Assembly: GCA_903829815.1 (NCBI GenBank)
Contig: CAIKRR010000027.1
Coordinates: forward strand, 25,112-89,111
DNA from: an uncultured Pseudomonadota bacterium
Lineage (GTDB): Bacteria; Pseudomonadota; Gammaproteobacteria; Burkholderiales; SG8-39
Direction: 5' to 3'
DNA: 64,000 nucleotides
Shown here: piece by piece, positions 24,210-47,852 of the stretch
How positions within the stretch are numbered: the first letter of the stretch is position 1
Layout: every line of letters begins with the position of its first letter
Made by a program: the position numbers and the translations under genes
Notes under the pieces: generated by a model
What the model was told of the DNA's origin: nothing
What the model saw: the letters and a program-made list of their open reading frames with translations, nothing else
Database searches by the model: none

Positions 24210-24950
24210 TCAGCCAAGCGTCGCCGCCAGGCGCGGTGCAGCCGCCCTCAGCGTGGCCGAAGCAGGCAGGCCGAGCGAGCGCAGCAACTGCCACGCGCCA
24301 CACAGGTTGGAGGACAGCAGCGGCACCTTCAACCCGGCCTGCCGAGCGAGGATGGCGGGCAGCGTGAGCATGCCAGTGCCCGAGAGCAGCACGGCACTGC
24401 CCGACGAGGGATGCACCCGCGCCAGACCTGCCAGCACTTCGGCCGTCTCGAGTTCATAGGCGCGAAAGATCTCGCCCAGCTTCACCACCTCGCTGACACG
24501 GTGGCCCGAGGCTTCCCAGTAGGCCACGGCGAGCTCGGTCAGCCAGTCAGGGTACGGTGACACGAGGCACAAGGTGTCGCAATCAAGTACGGCCAGCGCC
24601 TCGAGGATGGCGCGACTCGCCGTCCAGACCGGCTTGCCGCCAGCCGCCGCAGCGAGTTCCTCGCTCAGCGCCCGATCGGCTGCTGGGCCCAGGGCATAGG
24701 TGGCACCGGTCGAGCCCACATAGAGGGCATCGAGCCGCAAGGCCCCAAAACTGGCAATCGCGGGCGAATAGTGCGCTGCGTAAGCCGCATTGCGCTGCTG
24801 CAGGTTACCCGGCAGCACCGGCAGACGCGTGGTGTACATCGCCACTGCCTCAGGCAATAGCGCATGCAGTTCGGGCTCCACCGTAGGGTTGGCCGGCGGG
24901 GTGATGATGCCCACGCGTGGCTGTGTCCCCTGCAGCAGCCCGTCACTCAT
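24210..24950 (-). CDS. Asp/Glu racemase superfamily protein (arylmalonate decarboxylase/maleate isomerase-like) lacking the canonical Cys pair
   Basis: PRVGIITPPANPTVEPELHALLP...ALYVGSTGATYALG...LVSPYPDWLTELAVAYWEASG...VLLSGTGMLTLPAI. Confidence 0.75.
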   Translation of the reverse strand: MSDGLLQGTQPRVGIITPPANPTVEPELHALLPEAVAMYTTRLPVLPGNLQQRNAAYAAHYSPAIASFGALRLDALYVGSTGATYALGPAADRALSEELAAAAGGKPVWTASRAILEALAVLDCDTLCLVSPYPDWLTELAVAYWEASGHRVSEVVKLGEIFRAYELETAEVLAGLARVHPSSGSAVLLSGTGMLTLPAILARQAGLKVPLLSSNLCGAWQLLRSLGLPASATLRAAAPRLAATLG

Positions 24951-25794
24951 AGCGCTTGCCCAGCGCCAGCAGATCGGGGGTACCAATCACCCGGTTCAAC
25001 TGATCGAAGTCGAGCATGTGCTCGCGCCAGGGCGTTGTCGTACCAGCGGCCTTCAGACTTTCGAAGTAGCCTTGCAGCGCATGCGCAAAGGCGCGCACCG
25101 TGCCGCCCGGGAAGATGGCGATGCGATAACCCAGACGCTCGAGTTCGGCGGCAGGCATGACAGGCGTCTTGCCGCCTTCGACCATGTTGGCAAGCAGCGG
25201 CACACGATGCGCAAAGCGGGCGAGTGCCTGCTGCATCTGGGTCACATCGCGCAACGCCTCGATGAAGAGCACATCGGCACCGGCTACCAGGTACTGCTCG
25301 GCACGCTCGAGCGCCGCCTCCAGCCCTTCGACCGCCACTGCGTCGGTGCGCGCAATGATGAGGGTCTCGGTGCTGGCACGCGCATCGAGCGCAGCGCGGA
25401 TCTTGCCGGTCATCTCGTCCGTGGTCACCAGCGTCTTGCCGTCGAGGTGGCCGCAGCGCTTGGGCAGCGTCTGGTCCTCGAGCTGCAGCGCACTGGCACC
25501 GGCGCGCTCGAACATCCTCACCGTACGCATGACGTTGAGCGCATTGCCAAAGCCGGTATCGGCATCGACGATGAGCGGCAGCGCCACCCGCTCGCGGATG
25601 TTCTCGATGACATTGGCCACTTCACTCGCGGTGACGAGGCCAATGTCGGAGCGGCCAAGCCGGGTGTAGGCAATGCTTGCACCCGAGAGATAGGCAGCCT
25701 CGAACCCGGCCTGCTCAACCAGCAGGGCAGTGAGCGCGTCGTGAACGCCGGGGGCGAGCAAGAGGGCCGGTCGGGCAAGGCGTTGTCTGAGCAT
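24943..25794 (-). CDS. Isocitrate lyase/PEP mutase superfamily lyase (methylisocitrate/dimethylmalate lyase or oxaloacetate decarboxylase-like)
   Basis: LLAPGVHDALTALLVEQAGFEAAYLSGASIAYTRLG, LIVDADTGFGN, LEDQTLPKRCGHLDGK. Confidence 0.9.
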   Translation of the reverse strand: MLRQRLARPALLLAPGVHDALTALLVEQAGFEAAYLSGASIAYTRLGRSDIGLVTASEVANVIENIRERVALPLIVDADTGFGNALNVMRTVRMFERAGASALQLEDQTLPKRCGHLDGKTLVTTDEMTGKIRAALDARASTETLIIARTDAVAVEGLEAALERAEQYLVAGADVLFIEALRDVTQMQQALARFAHRVPLLANMVEGGKTPVMPAAELERLGYRIAIFPGGTVRAFAHALQGYFESLKAAGTTTPWREHMLDFDQLNRVIGTPDLLALGKRYE

Positions 25795-27869: not shown

Positions 27870-29074
27870 GATGATGTTGTCCCCTTCAACCCGAGCACGG
27901 CCCGCACCACATCGAGCTGGATGAGCGACGCGTCGATCATCTGTGCGATTGGAATCGATTCATTCGGCGCATGGCCCTGCCCACCCTCGCCCGGCCCGAA
28001 ATCGATGATCTCGATACCGTCGCGGGCGAAGTAGCGTCCATCGAAGACGCCGACAGCATTCACGAAACGCGCTGGCGCCCCCAGGTGGCTGGCGATGGCG
28101 GCATTGAAGGCCGCAAACATGGGCCCGTCGTCACGACTCTGGAAGCCGGCCGAGGCGGTGAGCTGGCTCACCTCGACGGTGCCCTCAGGCTCACCGGCAC
28201 TCAGGAGGCAATCGCGCAATTCGGCAAAGGCGTCAGCGGGGTTCTCGCTCGGCAGCAGACGCCGGTCGATCCGGACCTTGCAGTGCGCAGGCACCACATT
28301 GGGCTGCTCGCCCCCCTCGATGGTGCCCACATTGATCATCGAGGCCAGCTCGCCGCCCGGCGATGCGGCACGCCGGCGGGCAATGGCCGGACTCAGATCG
28401 CGCTCGACACGGGAGAGCAATCGCATCATTCGAAGAATGGCGTTGTCACCCGTCGGCGCGGCGCCGGCGTGGGCAGCACGGCCATGAGTGACCACTTGCA
28501 CCCAGATTACGCCCCGTTCGGCCACGATCATCTGATTTTCGGTCGGGGCACCGACCACCAGCATGTCGGGCCGCACCATGCCTTCGCCACGCAGTCGAGC
28601 CAGCCCGTCGGGACCGAGATTTTCCTCGTCGCCCACGAAAGTGAAGACGACCTCGCCACGCGCCGGCCCTCCGGCGCGAGCAATTTCGCGCGCAAGCCAC
28701 AGGTGACAGGCAGCAGCGCCCTTGGCGTTGGAGGCCCCAAGGCCATGCAGACGCCCCTCGCGAACCACCGGACCATACGGCTCGGTATGCCAGGCCGCCA
28801 GATCACCCGGGCCGATGGTGTCAACGTGCACGTTGAAAACGAGCGAAGGATGACCGCTGCCCAGACGTGCCACCACATTGGTCGAGGCACCGAAGCGAGG
28901 CGTGTCGACCCGGTAGCCGCTGGCGAGGAGATCGCGCGCGATGCGCTCGGCGATGGCGCTGGTATCACCCGGGGGCGAGCGTGAATCGATCGCCACCAGA
29001 TCACCCAGCGTGGCAACCAGATCGCGCCCGATCGGCTCGCGGTCGACGGGGCGTCCAGATTGGCTGTGCGTCAT
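27866..29074 (-). CDS. M20 family metallopeptidase/deacylase (ArgE/DapE-like)
   Basis: LVFNVHVDTIGPGDLAAW, GLGASNAKGAAACHLW, FTFVGDEENLGPDG; start MTHSQSGRPVDREPIG at 29074. Confidence 0.85.
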   Translation of the reverse strand: MTHSQSGRPVDREPIGRDLVATLGDLVAIDSRSPPGDTSAIAERIARDLLASGYRVDTPRFGASTNVVARLGSGHPSLVFNVHVDTIGPGDLAAWHTEPYGPVVREGRLHGLGASNAKGAAACHLWLAREIARAGGPARGEVVFTFVGDEENLGPDGLARLRGEGMVRPDMLVVGAPTENQMIVAERGVIWVQVVTHGRAAHAGAAPTGDNAILRMMRLLSRVERDLSPAIARRRAASPGGELASMINVGTIEGGEQPNVVPAHCKVRIDRRLLPSENPADAFAELRDCLLSAGEPEGTVEVSQLTASAGFQSRDDGPMFAAFNAAIASHLGAPARFVNAVGVFDGRYFARDGIEIIDFGPGEGGQGHAPNESIPIAQMIDASLIQLDVVRAVLGLKGTTSS

Positions 29075-30492
29075 CAGGGACGCCAGGCGGTGATCGACTC
29101 GGTGGTGTGCTCGAGATTGCGCGGCGCGGCCGGCGCCATCTGCTGCGTGGCCTTCACCGAGCGCCCCCAACCGCGGTCACCCACCAGTGCACCGTCCTTG
29201 GCAACGACGCGACCCCGCACCATCGTGAGCACCGGGCCGGCCGTGGTACGCCAGCCATGCCAGGGCGAAATCTTCGACTTCGAGAAGAGCGACTCATCGC
29301 GAATGTCGCGCTCCAGCGCCATGTCGACCAGCACGATGTCGGCATCGGCGCCCACCTGCAGCACGCCCTTGTGCGGATACAGACCCCAGGCCCGTGCCGG
29401 GTTCACGCACGCCCAGCGCACATAGTCGTTGAGGGTCATGCGCCCGGCGTTCACCTGAGTGAGCATGAGGGGCATCTGGGTCTGCACACCGGGGAAGCCG
29501 CATTCGCAGTTCCAGATCGTGTCGCGGCGTTTTTCCTCGATGGTGTGCGGCGCATGGTCGGTCGCAATCATGTCGACCGTGCCGTCGTGCAGGGCCTCCC
29601 ACAGCGCCACGTCGTGCCCGGGCTCGCGGATCGGCGGGTTCACCTTGGCAAGACCATGCATGGTCTTCATCTGCTCGCTGGTGAGGAGCAGGTACTGCGG
29701 GCAGGTCTCCACCGTGACATCGACCCCGCGGCGCTTGGCATCGCGCACGAAATAAAGACCATCGCGCGAGCTCTTGTGGGCGATGTGCAGGCGCGCGCCG
29801 GTCCACTCGGCAAAGAGCGTGGCGCGACTCACCGCTTCCATCGCGGCAATGGCCGGGCGCGCGGCCAGATGGGCGAGCGGATCGACGCGCCCGGCGGCCT
29901 CGAGCTTGCCCTGGCGGCGCGCCATGATCGAGGCATTCTCGGCGTGCACCGTGCACCGAAGGCCGAGCTGGGCCAGGATCTCGAAGCCCTCGAGCATCGC
30001 GCCATCAGTCGGGGCCGGCAGATTGCCGAAGGTATTGCCCATGAAGCACTTGAAGCTTGCTGCCCCGGCAGCAGCCAGGTCTGCAAGCTGGTCGATATTG
30101 TTCTCGGCGAGCAGGCCGTAGATGCCGAAGTCGACATGAGCATCCCGGCTGGCGATGCCGATCTTCTGCTCCATCGCTGCCACCGTGCCGGTGGGCGGGT
30201 TGGTGTTGGGCATCTCGAACACGGTGGTCACACCACCCAGGGCAGCCGCACCGGTACCGGTATGCCAGTCTTCCTTGTACTCATAGCCAGGCGTACGAAA
30301 GTGCACGTGGGAGTCGATGGCACCCGGAATCACGTACTTGCCGGTGGCGTCGATCACCTGCGCAGCCGGTGGCATCAGGGCCTCATCACCGATGGCAACG
30401 ATGCGCTCGCCCACGATGGCGATGGCCGCCTCGACGGTCGACTCGGGGCTCACCACCTTGCCACCGCGGATCAGGATGTCGATCTTGTTCAT
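29074..30492 (-). CDS. Dihydroorotase/hydantoinase/allantoinase-type cyclic amidohydrolase
   Basis: YVIPGAIDSHVHFRTPGYEYKEDW, ASFKCFMG (carboxy-Lys), VHAENAS, LHIAHKSS, ATDHAPH; all metal-ligand positions present. Confidence 0.9.
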   Translation of the reverse strand: MNKIDILIRGGKVVSPESTVEAAIAIVGERIVAIGDEALMPPAAQVIDATGKYVIPGAIDSHVHFRTPGYEYKEDWHTGTGAAALGGVTTVFEMPNTNPPTGTVAAMEQKIGIASRDAHVDFGIYGLLAENNIDQLADLAAAGAASFKCFMGNTFGNLPAPTDGAMLEGFEILAQLGLRCTVHAENASIMARRQGKLEAAGRVDPLAHLAARPAIAAMEAVSRATLFAEWTGARLHIAHKSSRDGLYFVRDAKRRGVDVTVETCPQYLLLTSEQMKTMHGLAKVNPPIREPGHDVALWEALHDGTVDMIATDHAPHTIEEKRRDTIWNCECGFPGVQTQMPLMLTQVNAGRMTLNDYVRWACVNPARAWGLYPHKGVLQVGADADIVLVDMALERDIRDESLFSKSKISPWHGWRTTAGPVLTMVRGRVVAKDGALVGDRGWGRSVKATQQMAPAAPRNLEHTTESITAWRP

Positions 30493-33861: not shown

Positions 33862-34938
33862 ATGGCCCCCTCGCTGCCGCTCGATACCCCGACCTCGCGC
33901 CACCCCGCGTTTCGCCCGCTGCGACGCACCCTGGCATGCCTTGCGGTTGCCGCTGCGAGCCTCACCGGGCTGGGGCTTCCGGCTGCGCAGGCCCAGACCC
34001 CGATCAAGTTCTCGCTCAACTTCAAGCCCGATGGGTCCAACGCCGCCTGGTTCCTCGCTGCCGAACGCGGCTACTTCAAGGAAGCGGGCCTCGATGTTGC
34101 CCTGGATACCTCGGCGGGTACCGGCGACGTGATCCAGCGCCTCGCCTCGAACACCTACGACCTGGGGTGCGCCGACATCGGCACGCTCATCGAATTTGCC
34201 GGGCGCAATCCGCAGCAGGCACCGGTAACGGTCATGGTGCTCTACGCACGATCACCCCTTGCCATCATCAGCTTCAAGAAGGCGGGTATCAACCGACCCT
34301 CTGATCTCATCGGCAAGCGCATGGGGGCACCGGCCAACGACGGCGCCTTTCGCATGTGGCCGACCTTTGCCAAGGCCGCCGGCATCGATGCATCGAAGGT
34401 GCAGAACCAGAACGTCGACATCCGGGTGCGTGAAACGATGCTGGTGCGCGGTGAATACGAAGGGGCCTATGGCTACGACTCGAGCATGTGGTTCAACCTG
34501 AAGCCCATGGGCGTGAAGCTCGAGGACTTGTCGTTCCTGCGCTATGCCGACTACGGCCTGGACTTCTACGGCAACTCGGTGATGGCGTCGAGAAAGTTCA
34601 TGGCCGAGCACCCGAAGGAAGTCGAAGCATTCACCCGCATCACGGCGCGTGCCTGGCGCGAGGCGATGGCCGATCCGAAAGCGGCGGTTGCCGCGCTCTA
34701 CAAGCGCGAGCCGCTCATCAATGTCGAGGTCGAGATCGAAAAGCTGCAGTGGCTCACGAAGAACCAGCTCACCACGCCGCAGACGCGCGCCGAGGGCATG
34801 GGGGCGGTCGACATCGGTCGGCTGGACAAACAGATCGCTGCCATCACCGAAGCCTTCCAGCTGCCCTCGCTCCCGGCCACGAACGCCATCTACGATGCCA
34901 AGTTCCTGCCGCCGCGGGCCGAGCGGCAACTGCCCTGA
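33862..34938 (+). CDS. ABC transporter substrate-binding protein (NMT1/SsuA/TauA-like)
   Basis: Signal peptide then IKFSLNFKPDGSNAAWFLAAERGYFKEAGLDVALDTSAGTGDVIQRLASNTYDLGCADI. Confidence 0.88.
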   Translation: MAPSLPLDTPTSRHPAFRPLRRTLACLAVAAASLTGLGLPAAQAQTPIKFSLNFKPDGSNAAWFLAAERGYFKEAGLDVALDTSAGTGDVIQRLASNTYDLGCADIGTLIEFAGRNPQQAPVTVMVLYARSPLAIISFKKAGINRPSDLIGKRMGAPANDGAFRMWPTFAKAAGIDASKVQNQNVDIRVRETMLVRGEYEGAYGYDSSMWFNLKPMGVKLEDLSFLRYADYGLDFYGNSVMASRKFMAEHPKEVEAFTRITARAWREAMADPKAAVAALYKREPLINVEVEIEKLQWLTKNQLTTPQTRAEGMGAVDIGRLDKQIAAITEAFQLPSLPATNAIYDAKFLPPRAERQLP

Positions 34939-37853: not shown

Positions 37854-38888
37854 TTGAAACTGCGCATCCTCTCCGAACGAGACTGCCGTGCCGTGCTCGA
37901 CATGAGCCACGCCATCGAACTGCAACGCGAAGCCTTCCAGCACCTGGCCCAAGGGCGTGCGGTGGGCGGGCTGCGCAGCGTGGCACAAGGCAGCGAGCCG
38001 CCGAGCGTCACCATCTTCAACCCGTGCTTTCTCACCGGCGGTGGCGGATTTGGCGTGAAGGTGGTGTCCGACTTCGAGCAGAACACCGCCATCGGGCGCA
38101 CCCGGCTCACCGCGCTCGTGGCTGTCTTCGATGGCGCCTCGGGCTACCCCGAAGCGGTGATGGAAGGGGGTTACCTCACCGATGTGCGTACCGGCGCCGG
38201 AGTGGCACTGGCAGCCCGGTTGATGGCCCGCCCCGAGAGCCGTTCACTGACCCTCATCGGTGCCGGGCGCATCAGCGCCCATGTGCTTTCGGCCGTGGCC
38301 GAGGTGTTCGACCTGGAGCGGGTGCAAGTGCATACCCGCAGCCGCGCCCGCGGTGAAGCCTTCGTGGCTGCGGCCCGGGCGGCGGGCGGTCGGATACCCG
38401 ATCGGATCACCCTCACCGACGACCCGGCCACCGCGGTCGCCGAATCCGATCTGGTGATCGCCGCGACCACCGCGAGCACACCCGTGATTCAAGGCAACTG
38501 GCTGCGCGCGGGCACCTTCGTCGCCTCGGCCGGCAGCTATTCGGCCGCGGCACGCGAAGTGGATACGCGAACCATCGAGCGCGCCGCGGTGCGTGTGGTG
38601 GACAGCGTGCGCGACAGCCTCGATCGGGTAGGCGACTACGTGATACCACTGGCCGAGGGTGCCATCGAACGCAGCTCGGTCATCGATTTCGGTCAGGTGG
38701 TGGCAGGCCTCGTGCCCGGACGCACGAGCGCGGCCGACATCACCTACTTCAAGTCGTGCGGCGTTGCTGCACAAGACCTCATCACGGCACAGTTCATTGC
38801 ACGAGCCTGTACGGCACGGGGCCTGGGCACCGTGGTCGACATCGGTGGCGACGAGCCACCCGCCAACGGAAGCAAAACCCATGCATGA
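37854..38888 (+). CDS. Ornithine cyclodeaminase/mu-crystallin family protein
   Basis: LKLRILSERDCRAVLDMSHAIELQREAF, GGYLTDVRTGAGVALAARLMARPESRSLTLIGAGRISAHVLSAV; inferred TTG start at 37854. Confidence 0.85.
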   Translation: MKLRILSERDCRAVLDMSHAIELQREAFQHLAQGRAVGGLRSVAQGSEPPSVTIFNPCFLTGGGGFGVKVVSDFEQNTAIGRTRLTALVAVFDGASGYPEAVMEGGYLTDVRTGAGVALAARLMARPESRSLTLIGAGRISAHVLSAVAEVFDLERVQVHTRSRARGEAFVAAARAAGGRIPDRITLTDDPATAVAESDLVIAATTASTPVIQGNWLRAGTFVASAGSYSAAAREVDTRTIERAAVRVVDSVRDSLDRVGDYVIPLAEGAIERSSVIDFGQVVAGLVPGRTSAADITYFKSCGVAAQDLITAQFIARACTARGLGTVVDIGGDEPPANGSKTHA

Positions 38889-40278
38889 CCTTGCCATCAC
38901 CTCAGCCACGCTGGTCACCTCGAGCGGGCGGCGACACGCCACGATCGTGATCGATGAGGGCCGGATCAGTGCGCTGCTCGCGCCTGGCGCGGCATTCGAT
39001 GCACGCGAGGTCATCGACGCCTCGGGCCTCCTCGTGCTGCCCGGTCTGGTCGATGCCCATGTGCATCTGCGCGACCCCGGGCTCACCCACAAGGAAGACT
39101 TTGCCAGCGGCACCGCTGCGGCCGCGGTGGGTGGCATCACGACCGTGATGGTGATGCCCACCGACCGGCCCATGACGACGACGGCCGCGCTTCTCGAGGC
39201 GAAGCGCCATCTGGGCGAGGGTCGTGCGCAGGTGGACTTTGCACTGCAGGCGCTGGTGGGCCCGGGCACCGAACCGGGCGAGGTCGAGCGGCTTGCCGCG
39301 GCCGGCGCGATCTCATTCGAGCTCTTCCTCGCCGACATGGCGTCACCCATGCAGGTGAACACGGGCGCGGAACTGCTCGCCTGTCTGCGCGCCGTGGCGG
39401 CCACCGGTCGGGTGGCCGGCATCAGCGCCGGTGACGAGAGCATCGTGGCGGCACACACACAGACCGGCATGCACGAGCAGGCCAGCAGCCGCGAGGCGTT
39501 TCTGCGCTCACGACCCGCCGTGGCCGAGGCCATGGGCCTTGCGCGCGCACTCATCGCCGCCCAGGCCGCGGGGGCGCGCGTGCACATCCGTCAGATGAGC
39601 AGCGCGCAGGGGCTGGCGGTGCTCGAGGGACTGCGAGGCACAGGCAGCCTTGATGGCGAGCCCTCTGCCGGGCCGTCGGACGCCACTCGCATCGACGTGA
39701 CAAGCGAGGTCACGCCGCACAACCTGCTGCTCGACGAGGGCTTCGTGAAGGTGCTGGGGCCGGTGGCCAAGGTACTGCCCCCGTTGCGCCGCGCGCACGA
39801 CCTTGCCTGCTTGCGCACCGCCTTGCGTGAAGGGCGCATCGACATGGTGGCCACGGACCACGCGCCGCACCTGCCTGCCGAGAAAGCCGCCGGCGAGGTC
39901 GACCTGGCGCTGGCACCGGGCGGTCTCGCGGGTCTGCAGACCTGGCTCCCGCTCATGCTCTCGATGGTGTCTGACCGCCTGCTCGACGAGAGCACGCTGG
40001 TGCGTGTCTGCTGCGAAGCACCGGCACGTCGGTTCGGACTGTGGCCACGCAAGGGCTCGCTTGAACCCGGCGCCGATGCCGATCTCGTACTCATCGACCC
40101 ACGCCGCCCGCTCACCATCCGCAATGCCGATCAACTGAGTCGTGCAGCGCAAACGCCCTTTGACGGCCGCCAGACGCCAGCCACACCCGTACTCACCCTG
40201 CTGCGCGGCGAGGTCATTGCGCGCGAAGGCAAGGTGGTGGGCAGCGCACATGGGCGCTTTGTCGCGCCGGATGTGTAG
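38881..40278 (+). CDS. Dihydroorotase-like amidohydrolase with substituted metal ligands
   Basis: LVLPGLVDAHVHLRDPGLTHKEDF and VATDHAPHLPAEK intact, but ISFELFL (K to E), GISAGDES (H to S), VHIRQMSS (H to Q). Overlaps upstream gene by 8 nt. Confidence 0.88.
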   Translation: MHDLAITSATLVTSSGRRHATIVIDEGRISALLAPGAAFDAREVIDASGLLVLPGLVDAHVHLRDPGLTHKEDFASGTAAAAVGGITTVMVMPTDRPMTTTAALLEAKRHLGEGRAQVDFALQALVGPGTEPGEVERLAAAGAISFELFLADMASPMQVNTGAELLACLRAVAATGRVAGISAGDESIVAAHTQTGMHEQASSREAFLRSRPAVAEAMGLARALIAAQAAGARVHIRQMSSAQGLAVLEGLRGTGSLDGEPSAGPSDATRIDVTSEVTPHNLLLDEGFVKVLGPVAKVLPPLRRAHDLACLRTALREGRIDMVATDHAPHLPAEKAAGEVDLALAPGGLAGLQTWLPLMLSMVSDRLLDESTLVRVCCEAPARRFGLWPRKGSLEPGADADLVLIDPRRPLTIRNADQLSRAAQTPFDGRQTPATPVLTLLRGEVIAREGKVVGSAHGRFVAPDV

Positions 40279-40354: not shown

Positions 40355-41575
40355 TCAGAGCGCCACCGTCTCCAACCGCTCCACCACACCGGCCAGGGCT
40401 TCACAACCCAGGACGATGTCGGCCTCGTCGGTGTTCTCGACGATGTCGTGACTGCGCCCGCCGATGCTCGGAATGAACAGCATGGCCGCGGGCATCACAC
40501 GGCCGACAATCATCGCGTCATGACCCGCACCGCTCACCATGCGCATCGAAGGCACCGACAATGCCCCGGCCACACCATCGATCATCGCCACCAGGCGCGG
40601 ATCCATCAGCGTGGGCGTGCTGCGGGCGATCGGCTGCGCCGACACCACAACGCCGCCTCGCCCATCGGCGGCTGCAATCTGGGCACGGAAAGCCGCCTCG
40701 ACCCGATCGAGCACCGCCAGTTCGGTATCGCGAAACTCGACCACCATCGAGGCCTCGGCGGGCACCACATTGGCCGCACCGGGCAATACACTCATCACGC
40801 CGACGTTCCAGACGGTATCGGGTCCCCCCAGGCCAGCGATGGCCTCGTGCACCCAGTGCGCCAGACCGATGAGCGAACGCGCTGCATCACGACGCAGATT
40901 GATCGGCGTCGTACCCGCGTGGTCGGCCTGGCCCTTGCAGATCACCCGAAAACGGCGGATGCCGACGATGCCGGTGACCGCCCCCAGACGCAGGGCAGCC
41001 GCCTCGAGTCGCGGCCCCTGCTCGATATGGGCTTCGAGATAGGCCACATGCCGGGCCGGGTCGCGCAGCCACACCGCGCCGCCGTAGCCGGCGCGTTCGA
41101 TCGCCTGGGGCACGGTTTCGCCACCAGGGGTTCGCGCCGCCGCCAGTTCGCTCTCGGGCAGATCGGCACAGAAGGCACGGCTCCCGAGGCACGACAGATA
41201 GGTGCCCTCTTCATCCTGAAACGAGGCGACATCGACGCCCAGGGTCGCGGCACGACCTTGTTCGATGCGTGAGCGCGCAATCTCCAGACCGTAGATGACA
41301 CCCATCGCCCCGTCGAGCCAGCCGCCGCGCGGCACCGTGTCGGTATGCGAGCCGATGACCACGGCACGTGAGGCACCCGGCGTCACGCCCGCCACGTTGC
41401 CAACCCGGTCGATGCGCGCTTGCAACCCGGCCGATTGCATGCGCTCGACCAGCCACTGACGGGCCTCGATATCGGGCGCGGAGAAGGACACCCGGTCGAC
41501 CCCGGTACCACAGGCACCGAAGCGGGCCAGCGCGCGCAGATCGGCCATCAGACGGCCGGCATTGATACGACTCAT
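40355..41575 (-). CDS. M20 family Zn-dependent hydrolase (N-carbamoyl-L-amino-acid hydrolase/allantoate amidohydrolase-like)
   Basis: VDRVSFSAPDIEARQWLVERMQSAGL, VIGSHTDTVPRGGWLDGAMGVIYGLEIAR, FQDEEGTYLSCLGSRAF, LEAHIEQGPRLE, SGAGHDAM. Confidence 0.9.
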   Translation of the reverse strand: MSRINAGRLMADLRALARFGACGTGVDRVSFSAPDIEARQWLVERMQSAGLQARIDRVGNVAGVTPGASRAVVIGSHTDTVPRGGWLDGAMGVIYGLEIARSRIEQGRAATLGVDVASFQDEEGTYLSCLGSRAFCADLPESELAAARTPGGETVPQAIERAGYGGAVWLRDPARHVAYLEAHIEQGPRLEAAALRLGAVTGIVGIRRFRVICKGQADHAGTTPINLRRDAARSLIGLAHWVHEAIAGLGGPDTVWNVGVMSVLPGAANVVPAEASMVVEFRDTELAVLDRVEAAFRAQIAAADGRGGVVVSAQPIARSTPTLMDPRLVAMIDGVAGALSVPSMRMVSGAGHDAMIVGRVMPAAMLFIPSIGGRSHDIVENTDEADIVLGCEALAGVVERLETVAL

Positions 41576-41578
41576 GAG

Positions 41579-42298
41579 TCAGACCTCCATCAGGCGCCCA
41601 AGCCCAGAGGGCCGCGCCGCGACACCTGCCACCCGCAAGGCCGACCAGAGCAGCGTCTGATTGGATCCGAGTACCGGTATCCCGCAACGTGACTCGAGCG
41701 CCTCGATGCTGCCAAAGGTGGGCAGGTCGGTGGCGAGCAGGACGATGGCCTGCGCGCCGCGAGCGGCAATGGTGCCGACAAAATCGGTCAGGCGCGCATT
41801 GTCGACCGTGGGTACTTCACGCATCTGCACGATATCGAGCGTGGCATGGCCGGTGATCGTGTAGCCGGCCTGCTCGAAGAAGGCCGGCGCAAGATCGTGA
41901 ATGGCCTTCGGATACGGTGTGCCGAGGGCAAAGCGCTGCACCCCCAGCGCGGCGAGTGCATCGCGCAGTGCGGTCCACGCCGACAGGCAGGGCGTGCCGG
42001 TGCGCGCCGAGAGCGCCGCCATCTTCTCTTCGCTCCACTGCCGGTTCATGATGAAAGTGGTGACCATGTCGGCGTAGGCGATGACATCGACGCCGGTGGC
42101 TGCCAGTTCATCGACCGCGCGCTCGACCTCGGCCTCCATGCGCTCGATCGCCTCGTGGGTGAGCGCGCCGCGCGCCATGATGCGGGTGGCGTAAGCCGCC
42201 ACGCCCGCGGGCAGCCGCGACCACCATTCCGGTTCGATCACCGAATTGTTGGCGGGCACCACGACGCCGATGCGACCACCCGCGCCATAGACCGGCAT
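41579..42298 (-). CDS. Maleate isomerase/Asp-Glu racemase superfamily protein lacking canonical Cys pair
   Basis: GRIGVVVPANNSVIEPEWWSRLPAGVAAYATRI...IAYADMVTTFIMN...FALGTPYPKAIHDLAPAFFEQAGYTITGH...IVLLATDLPTFGSIEALE. Confidence 0.78.
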   Translation of the reverse strand: MPVYGAGGRIGVVVPANNSVIEPEWWSRLPAGVAAYATRIMARGALTHEAIERMEAEVERAVDELAATGVDVIAYADMVTTFIMNRQWSEEKMAALSARTGTPCLSAWTALRDALAALGVQRFALGTPYPKAIHDLAPAFFEQAGYTITGHATLDIVQMREVPTVDNARLTDFVGTIAARGAQAIVLLATDLPTFGSIEALESRCGIPVLGSNQTLLWSALRVAGVAARPSGLGRLMEV

Positions 42299-42317
42299 TG
42301 CAGCACCTCGCCCGAGC

Positions 42318-43310
42318 TCAGTCGGGGGTGGCATTGGAGAGCCTGATGGCCAGCGCCCAGCGGGCGATTTCACGATCGAGAAACACACCGAACTCGGGCC
42401 CATTCATGAACTGCACCGTCATGCCGGTCTTTTCGAAGGTCTGCACGACCTCGGGCAGCGCAACGATGCGGCGCAATTCAGCCTCGAGACGCGCAACGAT
42501 GGTGGGGGGCGTCCCAGCAGGAGCCATGATGCCGGTCCAGCCGCCCATTTCCATCTGCGGATAGCCCTGCTCGATCATGGTGGGCACATCGGGCAGGAGC
42601 GGGCTGCGTTGGGCGCTGGTGACCGCCAGCGCACGGATCTTGCCGGCGCGGATGTTCTGGTAGGAGATCGACAGCGAATCGAACATGAAATCGACATCGC
42701 CCGCGAGAATGGCTGCCGTGGCGGCCGGTGCGCCGCGAAACGGCACATGGAGGGCATCGTATTTCGCGTAGTACTTCATCAGCTCACCCGAGAGCTGGAT
42801 GGTGGTGCCGGTACCGTTGGAGGCAAAGTTGAGCTTGCCCGGATTGCGCCGCGCAAACTCGACGAACTCGGCCACGCTGCGTGCGCTGATGCGACTGCCC
42901 ACCACCAGCACATTGGGTACGCTGCCAAGGAGCGCGATCGGAACGAAATCGCGCTTCATGTCAAAAGGCACCGAAGGATAGAGCGTGACGCTGATCGCGT
43001 TGGGCGGGCCGGCCAGGAGCAGCGTGTGGCCGTCAGGGTTCGCCTTGGCCACGTAGTCGGTGCCGATGTTGCCGCCCGAGCCCGAGCGATTCTCGACCAC
43101 CACCGGTTGCCCGAGTACCTCACCCAGCCTGGGCGCAACCACCCGCGCGCTGAAGTCGGTGATACCCCCGGGTGGGAAATTCACGATCAGGCGCACGGCC
43201 CGCGTGGGCCAGGCCTGCGGCTGGGCGAGCGCCGCTACCGCAAAGAGACTGGCAGCGCCAACGCCCGCAAGCAGCAGGGTGGCGCGCAGCAATGGGCGAG
43301 ATGAGGTCAT
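42318..43310 (-). CDS. Bug/TctC family substrate-binding protein
   Basis: WPTRAVRLIVNFPPGGITDFSARVVAPRLGEVLGQPVVVENRSGSGGNIGTDYVAKANPDGHTLLL. Confidence 0.92.
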   Translation of the reverse strand: MTSSRPLLRATLLLAGVGAASLFAVAALAQPQAWPTRAVRLIVNFPPGGITDFSARVVAPRLGEVLGQPVVVENRSGSGGNIGTDYVAKANPDGHTLLLAGPPNAISVTLYPSVPFDMKRDFVPIALLGSVPNVLVVGSRISARSVAEFVEFARRNPGKLNFASNGTGTTIQLSGELMKYYAKYDALHVPFRGAPAATAAILAGDVDFMFDSLSISYQNIRAGKIRALAVTSAQRSPLLPDVPTMIEQGYPQMEMGGWTGIMAPAGTPPTIVARLEAELRRIVALPEVVQTFEKTGMTVQFMNGPEFGVFLDREIARWALAIRLSNATPD

Positions 43311-45361: not shown

Positions 45362-45488
45362 GGTTGTCTCCCCTGTCGCCCTGTCGAGGTACGGGCGAAA
45401 TACGATGATACGCGAGCGATCACGCCCGGCGGACCTGCTCGTTTATCATGGGGTCCCGCCAGAGATTCGGCTTTACCGGCAGCACCTC

Positions 45489-47852
45489 GTGGACACCATC
45501 GATCGGCCCGGCACCCCCGGAGACTCTGTCGGACAGCCCGTCCGACGCAAGGAAGACCTGCGACTCGTCACCGGGCGCGGTCAGTTCAGCGATGACTTCA
45601 GCCTCGAGGGCCAGACCTATGCCGTGATGGTGCGCTCGCCACACCCGCATGCCCGCATCCGCGCCATCGACGCGCGCCGGGCGGCCGCCCTGCCCGGTGT
45701 GCTCGGGGTCTTCACCGGGGCCGACTGCGCCGCTGACGGCCTGGGTGCCATTCCGCACAGCCCGGTGCCCTCGACCCGTCACGACATGAAATTGCATGGC
45801 CGCGACGGCACCCCGGTCTTCATCGGGCCCCACCTGCTGCTGCCCGCCGACCGCGCGCGCCATGTCGGCGAGGCCGTCGCGATGGTCGTTGCCGATACCC
45901 CAGGACGCGCGATGGACGCGGCCGAAGCGGTCGAGGTCGACTACGAATCCCTGCCCTGGATCTCGCAGTGGCACCAGGCACTCGAACCCGGCGCGCCGGT
46001 CGTATGGGATGAAGCCCCCGACAACACCCCGGTCGATACCTGGTTTGGCGACAAGACGGGTACGGAAGCTGCCTTTGCCGGCGCCGACCATGTGGTGCGC
46101 CTCGACCTGCACATCGATCGGGTCACCGCAGTCGCGATGGAGCCACGCGCAGCGCTCGGCTCGTTCGATGCCGCGACCGGTCGTTACACGCTCTACGCCG
46201 GCAGTGGTGGCGCGGTGCGCCAGAAGCGCGAACTGGCGAGCGTGCTGGGTACCGACCCGGACAATGTGCGGGTGCTCTCCTTCGATGTCGGAGGCAACTT
46301 CGGCTCGCGCAACCGCGCCTTCGTCGAGTTTGGCCTGGTGCTGTGGGCCTCGCGCAAGATCGGTCGTCCGGTGAAATTCACCGCAACCCGCTCGGAGTCG
46401 TTTCTGTCCGACTACCAGGGACGCGATCTGGCCACGACGGTCGAACTGGCGCTGCGGGCCGATGGCCGCTTTCTGGCCCTGCGCGCCTCCAACGTGAGCA
46501 ATCTGGGCGCACGCTGCGTCTCGCTATCGCCCTTGAGCAAGGGCTCAGGCCTGGTGACGGGCTCCTACGACATTCCGGTCGCCAGCCTGCGCAGCCGGGC
46601 GGTCTTCACCAACACCATGCCCACCCAGGCCTATCGCAGTTCGGGGCGCCCCGAGGTCACTTACGCGATCGAGCGTCTGGTCGACCAGGCCGCGGCGCAA
46701 CTGGGGTTCGATCGGGTCGAACTGCGGCGCATGAATCTCGTGCGCGACGCGGCCTTTCCCTACCGCAACGGCACCGGTGCGGTGTACGACAGCGGCGAGT
46801 ACACAGGCAATCTCGACCGCGCCCTGGCGCTGGCCGACTGGGACGGCTTTGCCGCACGACGCAGCGCCGCCGAGGCGCGCGGCAAGCTGCTCGGCCGCGG
46901 CCTTGCGCATTACGTCGAGTCCTCGATCGGCTCACCCCTGGAGCGGGTCGAACTGCGGGTTGATCAGGCCGGCGCCGTGCGTCTGGTCATTGGCACACAG
47001 CCCACCGGACAGGGCCACGAGACAAGCTTTGCCCAAGTGGCCGCAGCGCAACTCGGGATCGCCATGAGCGCGATCGACGTAGTGACCGCCGATACCGACA
47101 TCGTGAAGGCCGGTGGCGGTTCACACTCGGGCCGCTCGATGCGCCATGCGGGCACCGTGATCAGCAAGGCCACGGTGATGCTCATCGAGCAGGCTCGGCG
47201 CGAGGCGGCGCAGGTGCTCGAAACTGCACTCGATGACATCACCTTCGAGGATGGGCGCTTCTTCGTGGCAGGCACCGACCGCGGCCTTGACTGGTTCGAA
47301 CTCGCGCAGCGCATCGCCACCCGCACTGTGCTCGAAGTGGCGGCCGACAACGAGATGCATGACCCGGTGTTTCCCAACGGGTGCACCGCGTGCGAGTGCG
47401 AAATCGACCCCGATACCGGCGAGATGGTCATCACGCGTTATGCCGCGATCGACGACGTAGGACGCTGCATCAACCCGATGATCGTGCATGGCCAGACCCA
47501 CGGTGGCATCGCACAAGGCGTGGGCCAGGCGGTGGGCGAGCACTTCGCCATCGACCGCGAGTCAGGCCAACCGGTGTGCGGCTCGCTGATGGACTACTGC
47601 CTGCCGCGTGCCGACACCCTGCCCTCGTTCGCCACGCAGATCGTGGAAGTGCTCTCGCCCACCAATCCACTGGGCATCAAGGCGGGTGGCGAAGGGGGCA
47701 CCACACCGGCGCTTGCCGTGATCGTCAGTGCCGTGCTCGATGCGCTGCGCCCCCTCGGTGTCCAGACCATCGACATGCCGGTCACGCCACAGAAACTGTG
47801 GCGCGTCATTCACGAAGCACGCGCACGAACAGGCGCGCGAGTGGGCTCGTGA
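45489..47852 (+). CDS. Xanthine dehydrogenase family molybdopterin-binding subunit (no FAD/Fe-S partner adjacent)
   Basis: VGQPVRRKEDLRLVTGRGQFSDDFSLEGQTYAVMVRSPHPHARI, FDVGGNFGSRNRAFVEFGLVLWAS, PLGIKAGGEGG. Start uncertain (GTG 45489 or ATG 45405). Confidence 0.9.
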   Translation: MDTIDRPGTPGDSVGQPVRRKEDLRLVTGRGQFSDDFSLEGQTYAVMVRSPHPHARIRAIDARRAAALPGVLGVFTGADCAADGLGAIPHSPVPSTRHDMKLHGRDGTPVFIGPHLLLPADRARHVGEAVAMVVADTPGRAMDAAEAVEVDYESLPWISQWHQALEPGAPVVWDEAPDNTPVDTWFGDKTGTEAAFAGADHVVRLDLHIDRVTAVAMEPRAALGSFDAATGRYTLYAGSGGAVRQKRELASVLGTDPDNVRVLSFDVGGNFGSRNRAFVEFGLVLWASRKIGRPVKFTATRSESFLSDYQGRDLATTVELALRADGRFLALRASNVSNLGARCVSLSPLSKGSGLVTGSYDIPVASLRSRAVFTNTMPTQAYRSSGRPEVTYAIERLVDQAAAQLGFDRVELRRMNLVRDAAFPYRNGTGAVYDSGEYTGNLDRALALADWDGFAARRSAAEARGKLLGRGLAHYVESSIGSPLERVELRVDQAGAVRLVIGTQPTGQGHETSFAQVAAAQLGIAMSAIDVVTADTDIVKAGGGSHSGRSMRHAGTVISKATVMLIEQARREAAQVLETALDDITFEDGRFFVAGTDRGLDWFELAQRIATRTVLEVAADNEMHDPVFPNGCTACECEIDPDTGEMVITRYAAIDDVGRCINPMIVHGQTHGGIAQGVGQAVGEHFAIDRESGQPVCGSLMDYCLPRADTLPSFATQIVEVLSPTNPLGIKAGGEGGTTPALAVIVSAVLDALRPLGVQTIDMPVTPQKLWRVIHEARARTGARVGS

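Follow-up and report, generated by a model that had tools for sequence, protein, structure and literature searches.

What becomes of a dihydroorotase- or hydantoinase-like enzyme when three of the residues expected to hold its metals have been replaced? The question is raised by one gene in a 64,000-nucleotide stretch of DNA (the window) from an uncultured bacterium of the Burkholderiales. An initial annotation had described its open reading frame, coordinates and motifs, and had read three ligand substitutions against an intact homologue in the same window. All of these are confirmed by our alignment of more than 80 homologues, from which the ligand positions were read. The homologue used for comparison is real, lies on the minus strand and shares 38-39% identity with the product of interest. 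The features used below are as follows.

38881-40278, plus strand: cyclic-amidohydrolase (dihydroorotase/hydantoinase-like) gene of the K-to-E subfamily, 465 aa
39058-39066, plus strand: H60-x-H62 alpha-metal motif (DAHVH), invariant in 53/53 clade members
39160-39165, plus strand: T94-D95 replacing the MPN-T motif, clade-specific, a predicted change of the substrate pocket (T-D in 53/53; mostly N-T in intact homologues)
39319-39321, plus strand: Glu147 at the position of the bridging carboxy-lysine (strand beta-4), from the alignment and the AlphaFold strand
39424-39426, plus strand: Ser182 at the position of the first beta-metal His (end of strand beta-5)
39592-39594, plus strand: Gln238 at the position of the second beta-metal His (after strand beta-6)
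39856-39858, plus strand: Asp326, the catalytic/metal Asp, kept (ATDHAPH)
37854-38888, plus strand: ornithine cyclodeaminase (OCD)/mu-crystallin-like gene (EutC/imine-reductase superfamily)
40355-41575, minus strand: M20 hydantoinase/carbamoylase-family amidase (TIGR01879, 277 bits, cutoff 204)
41579-42403, minus strand: EutA/arylmalonate-decarboxylase (AMDase)-like protein (PF17645), a conserved neighbour in window-type loci
45471-47852, plus strand: xanthine-dehydrogenase-type molybdopterin subunit, of a family that recurs near several other window-type members
33862-34938, plus strand: NMT1/THI5-like substrate-binding protein, with relatives near some window-type members
29074-30492, minus strand: intact (H-H-K-H-H-D) homologue, the comparison of the initial annotation, on a separate tree branch

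The lysine at position 147 is replaced by glutamate (ISFELF), the histidine at 182 by serine (GISAGDES) and that at 238 by glutamine (VHIRQMSS). The alpha-metal ligands H60 and H62 (DAHVH) and D326 (ATDHAPH) are retained. The initial annotation had considered that another Lys or His might occupy the metal positions; none is offered by any gap in the alignment near 147, 182 or 238. Among residues of the types H, K, C, D and E, only D95 and E147 are fixed throughout the clade without being so among the intact homologues, and a replacement Lys or His ligand was rejected, none being both invariant and clade-specific. H235, the other histidine of VHIRQ, is not a ligand, since intact homologues conserve it too and the L-hydantoinase 1gkr has an Ile at the aligned position. 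The protein shares with the cyclic amidohydrolase superfamily its full-length sequence, its (beta/alpha)8 fold as predicted, the HxH motif and the beta-8 Asp, and lacks its bridging carboxylated lysine and two beta-metal histidines (the subfamily has E147, S/T182 with one Q182, and Q238).

The initial annotation had proposed modelling the structure. AlphaFold2 (mean pLDDT 94.5, pTM 0.94) predicts a full cyclic-amidohydrolase fold, in which E147 lies within strand 145-149, S182 ends strand 178-182 and Q238 falls just past strand 233-236, all three in the usual ligand places of the fold. The best Foldseek matches are the L-hydantoinase 1gkr (TM 0.92/0.95) and the allantoinases 3hm7 and 8hfd, with TM up to 0.95. 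Residues 257-271 (window 39649-39693), modelled with low confidence, form an insertion of some 15 residues that separates strand 6 from the strand after it; it is present in the window protein and a 95% identical relative and missing from nearly all others.

Relatives were taken from species-representative genomes and divided into those with at least 41% identity (n=53, non-redundant) and more distant ones (n=27). The ligand set in the closer relatives is H-H-E-S-Q-D (44 proteins), H-H-E-T-Q-D (8) or H-H-E-Q-Q-D (1), and the same set occurs in three annotated plasmids, whereas the more distant homologues have H-H-K-H-H in 27/27 cases, with the final D in 26 and G in one. H60, H62, E147, D326, R64 and H330 are each invariant in 53/53 clade members, as expected for a functional site. 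The invariants peculiar to the clade are Thr94-Asp95 (for Asn-Thr), Thr99, Gln123, Ser145, Arg237 and Gln238.

In a maximum-likelihood tree (66 proteins, of which five are reference enzymes of solved structure), the E-type proteins form a single clade (support 100/99), apart from the branch of the intact homologue. An acidobacterial protein (locus L062) is sister to this clade (100/98); its ligands in that alignment, H-H-E-S-M-D, share the K-to-E change and the loss of both beta-histidines. The clade comprises Betaproteobacteria, including the family of the window, Alphaproteobacteria (Mesorhizobium, Rhizobium, Phyllobacterium, Roseomonas, Microvirga and Paracoccus) and Caballeronia. Among its members are proteins of Rhizobium johnstonii 3841 (RL_RS33540, WP_011648913) and Paracoccus aminophilus (WP_020952757). 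The subfamily is rare, with one further match among 298 other Pseudomonadota genomes (E<=1e-85), and no viral carrier of the gene was found. Nei-Gojobori dN/dS is 0.13 for a same-genus pair and 0.18 against a 67% identical relative, a pair in which synonymous sites are near saturation. The clade is under purifying selection. Sequencing error, chance and a decaying pseudogene are excluded by the 53/53 conservation in independent genomes and by dN/dS of 0.13-0.18. The initial annotation had allowed that these residues might be normal in some characterised subfamily; the subfamily exists, and no characterised member of it was found. Nor did the open-licence literature yield a paper on a Glu-bridged cyclic amidohydrolase of this branch.

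To which known family the protein belongs is answered only broadly by profile scores. It just passes TIGR00857, a broad dihydroorotase multi-family subfamily model (286.5 against a cutoff of 279.05), and passes none of the dihydroorotase, allantoinase and hydantoinase equivalog models among the families listed: the best dihydroorotase equivalog score is 304 bits against 452 (NF002668), with 301 against 358 for AllB (TIGR03178) and 241 against 393 for TIGR02033. Plasmid-genome records name members "dihydroorotase family protein", a name to which the metal site and the equivalog scores give no support. The closest solved structure, 1gkr of Arthrobacter aurescens, matches over the whole length (224 bits with the single sequence, 348 bits with a profile), but has the full K/H/H binuclear site and lies on a separate branch with the allantoinases. 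PyrC and PyrC' of pyrimidine synthesis were rejected as identities, both being encoded elsewhere in the genome: canonical PyrC on another contig (451.7 bits, cutoff 293), and a degenerate PyrC' (L003; G000 C59) beside pyrB on a third contig, outside that of the window. The likeness to PyrC'-like pseudo-dihydroorotases suggested by the initial annotation is a poor fit. PyrC' is of the same superfamily and has degenerate ligands too, but it is a separate gene, distant in the tree, in which the alpha-site is lost as well (A-R-S-R-R-D, with HxH gone), and at most window-type loci no intact paralogue is seen within ~6 kb.

Some superfamily members bridge their metals with Glu instead of carboxy-lysine, and the site could by that precedent still be binuclear, its two metals bridged by Glu147 and a weak beta-site completed by Gln238 and a water. 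Some type-I dihydroorotases with Asp at the lysine position also bind two zincs (PMC3880350). We nevertheless regard a binuclear site as very improbable: every member lacks both beta-site histidines, zinc is poorly held by Ser/Thr and Gln, and the dihydroorotases of B. anthracis and T. thermophilus still have the histidine pair.

By analogy, the closest mechanistic precedent is the type-I dihydroorotase of Aquifex aeolicus, which has a single alpha-site zinc with the ligands His61, His63 and Asp153, the last close to the carboxy-lysine place, and with Asp305 nearby (PMC3880350). The window protein has the same mononuclear pattern of HxH, a carboxylate at the lysine position and an Asp, its ligands being read from the alignment. 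Removal of the beta-site of the Aquifex enzyme (His180Ala/His232Ala) leaves Km unchanged and lowers Vmax by 21% (PMC3880350). The comparison is only an analogy, because the Aquifex enzyme naturally keeps both beta-histidines and has a slightly shifted Asp, not Glu; it also needs ATCase for activity and serves pyrimidine biosynthesis (PMC3880350). The window protein resembles a form of the beta-deleted Aquifex mutant that became fixed in nature, with Glu for Asp.

The initial annotation had offered three outcomes for the altered site: a mononuclear enzyme, a non-catalytic partner or a new chemistry. We favour the first, because the alpha-site and Glu147 are invariant and the Aquifex dihydroorotase works without a beta-site (PMC3880350), and consider it rather likely that the window protein is an active mononuclear cyclic amidohydrolase acting on some carboxylated N-heterocycle or ureide. 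The sequence changes, their conservation, the monophyly of the clade, the predicted fold and the gene context are what the data show; metal number, activity, substrate and order of steps are what we infer. One alpha-site metal would be held by H60, H62, D326 and the carboxylate of Glu147, which takes the usual place of the bridging carboxy-lysine; the beta-site would be dismantled (Ser/Thr182, Gln238), and a metal-bound water, activated by D326, would attack the ring amide as in the Aquifex enzyme. The pocket would have been re-tuned, with T94-D95, Q123, R237 and Q238 invariant and Arg64 and His330 kept. Some considerations speak against this mononuclear reading. A metal in the conserved pocket might have a purely structural role, and in binuclear relatives (Klebsiella dihydroorotase and allantoinase) replacement of the corresponding beta-site histidines abolished activity (as cited in PMC3880350). 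Judged from the sequences, the E-type branch probably represents a two-metal site rebuilt by half into a one-metal ring-opening enzyme for N-heterocycle breakdown. If active, it would be a natural and evolutionarily stable beta-site-deleted enzyme, so far only made by mutation in Aquifex, and would test the need for carboxy-lysine and a second metal in cyclic amide hydrolysis.

In dihydroorotases, the carboxylate of the substrate is bound by three residues: the Arg that follows HxH, the MPN asparagine and the DHAPH histidine. Two of these three are kept here (Arg64 and His330) and the Asn is changed, and we therefore infer a carboxylated substrate that is not dihydroorotate. This suggests a carboxylated N-heterocycle or cyclic ureide.

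The neighbouring genes were counted within ~6 kb at 14 window-type loci, 40 rhizobial/Caballeronia-type loci and 26 loci of intact homologues. The initial annotation had drawn attention to the OCD-like gene, the end of which overlaps the amidohydrolase start by 8 bases (ATGCATGA). The association holds at 10 of the 14 window-type loci, but the overlap is confined to the genus of the window (the gene lies 3-6 kb from the amidohydrolase at L010 (G073), L011, L013, L015 and L017), and the gene is absent from the rhizobial loci. More strongly linked is the EutA/AMDase-like gene, which the initial annotation did not mention: it is found at 13/14 window-type loci (one match weak, at 29%; the contig of the 14th ends at the gene). 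M20 carbamoylase-like genes occur at 9/14, class-I aminotransferases at 6/14, and xanthine-dehydrogenase subunits often. The intact-homologue loci have EutA-like genes in 0, OCD-like in 2 and M20 in 2 of 26 cases. None of these counts is independent, since related loci have a common ancestry. The acidobacterial sister locus has weak EutA-like and OCD-like neighbours.

In window-type loci, the ring would be opened by the amidohydrolase and the resulting open chain cleaved by the M20 carbamoylase-like enzyme, with the ring or its imine form being processed by the EutA-like and EutC/OCD-like proteins. The ectoine pathway was rejected: two window neighbours are EutA-like (92 bits) and EutC-like (140 bits), respectively, but fall far below the curated cutoffs of 318 and 472, and EutB, EutD and EutE were not recognised in the window cluster. 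The EutA/AMDase-like neighbour in the window, like its relatives near L008-L017, L020 and L028, apparently has no Cys at either of two motif positions that we take to be the catalytic Cys positions expected in its superfamily. The two motifs read (A/C)DMVTTF and ATDLPTF, with conserved Asp residues; in L014 the first is ACLATSL. Going by these motifs, the neighbour may be a second remodelled enzyme in the cluster. Another AMDase-like protein of the window (24210-24986, minus strand, 54 bits) also has no Cys at the same two motifs.

A second genomic context is found in rhizobia, Caballeronia and the Paracoccus plasmid pAMI1 (the 40 loci and three annotated plasmids). The neighbours here are a PuuE-like protein (39/40), a sugar-epimerase-like dehydrogenase (38/40) and a hydantoinase (37/40), as well as SDRs and a thiamine-diphosphate enzyme or MFS transporter; EutA- or OCD-like genes are absent from these loci. 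Since the members with this context form one tree branch (100/100), the subfamily was drawn into a second pathway. In the plasmids pAMI1 and pRL12 (L088, 6097-14951, and L089, 4129-12952) the E-type amidohydrolase belongs to a conserved operon of unknown function with an ABC transporter, a hydantoinase, SDRs, a PuuE-like protein and a thiamine-diphosphate enzyme. We found no paper on the gene-neighbour combination or on the Rhizobium pRL12 locus in the open-licence literature, and a search there on Paracoccus pAMI1 turned up genome papers but no mention of dihydropyrimidinase.

The complete difference in neighbours between the two contexts might mean that the reaction departs from ordinary ring hydrolysis, and the clade-specific invariants near the active site (T94-D95, Q123, R237, Q238) exceed what ligand loss alone involves. 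A metalloenzyme with non-hydrolytic chemistry on the same kind of ring substrate (an isomerase, lyase or decarboxylase) is still rather improbable, given that the protein retains the hydrolytic family's Asp326, Arg64 and His330 and that M20 carbamoylase-like neighbours suit the product of ring hydrolysis.

The neighbourhoods also bear on whether the protein has lost catalysis and serves an active partner by assembly or regulation, in the manner of PyrC' and ATCase; the rhizobial copies could so pair with the intact hydantoinase of their operon. Three classical ligands are lost, the hydantoinase-like gene lies within ~6 kb at 37/40 rhizobial/Caballeronia-type loci with an intact K/H/H set in the members inspected, the window's genus has an intact homologue 9-12 kb away, and the OCD-like gene overlaps by 8 bases. 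We consider such a role unlikely. The catalytic site usually drifts in pseudoenzymes, whereas here the alpha-site is invariant across all 53 members, as are the residues around it (HxH is gone in the PyrC' of this genome), and window-type loci such as L013 and L015 show no second cyclic amidohydrolase within the flanks that were covered.

Returning to the one-metal hydrolase that we favour, the subfamily marks two uncharacterised N-heterocycle/ureide gene clusters in soil and plant-associated bacteria. A broader proposition is tentative and, on balance, doubtful: that the subfamily is a distinct and widespread one-metal family, with Glu as a direct ligand and the beta-site gone by nature, serving two unrelated, undescribed N-heterocycle catabolic pathways and possibly performing a reaction novel for the dihydroorotase/hydantoinase group.

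The gene lies in a catabolic region of the window (21799-48859). Inspection by eye gives at least six genes for TctC-like (Bug) substrate-binding proteins there; an FAD monooxygenase, a PEP-mutase-like gene and two Amidohydro_2 genes are also present.
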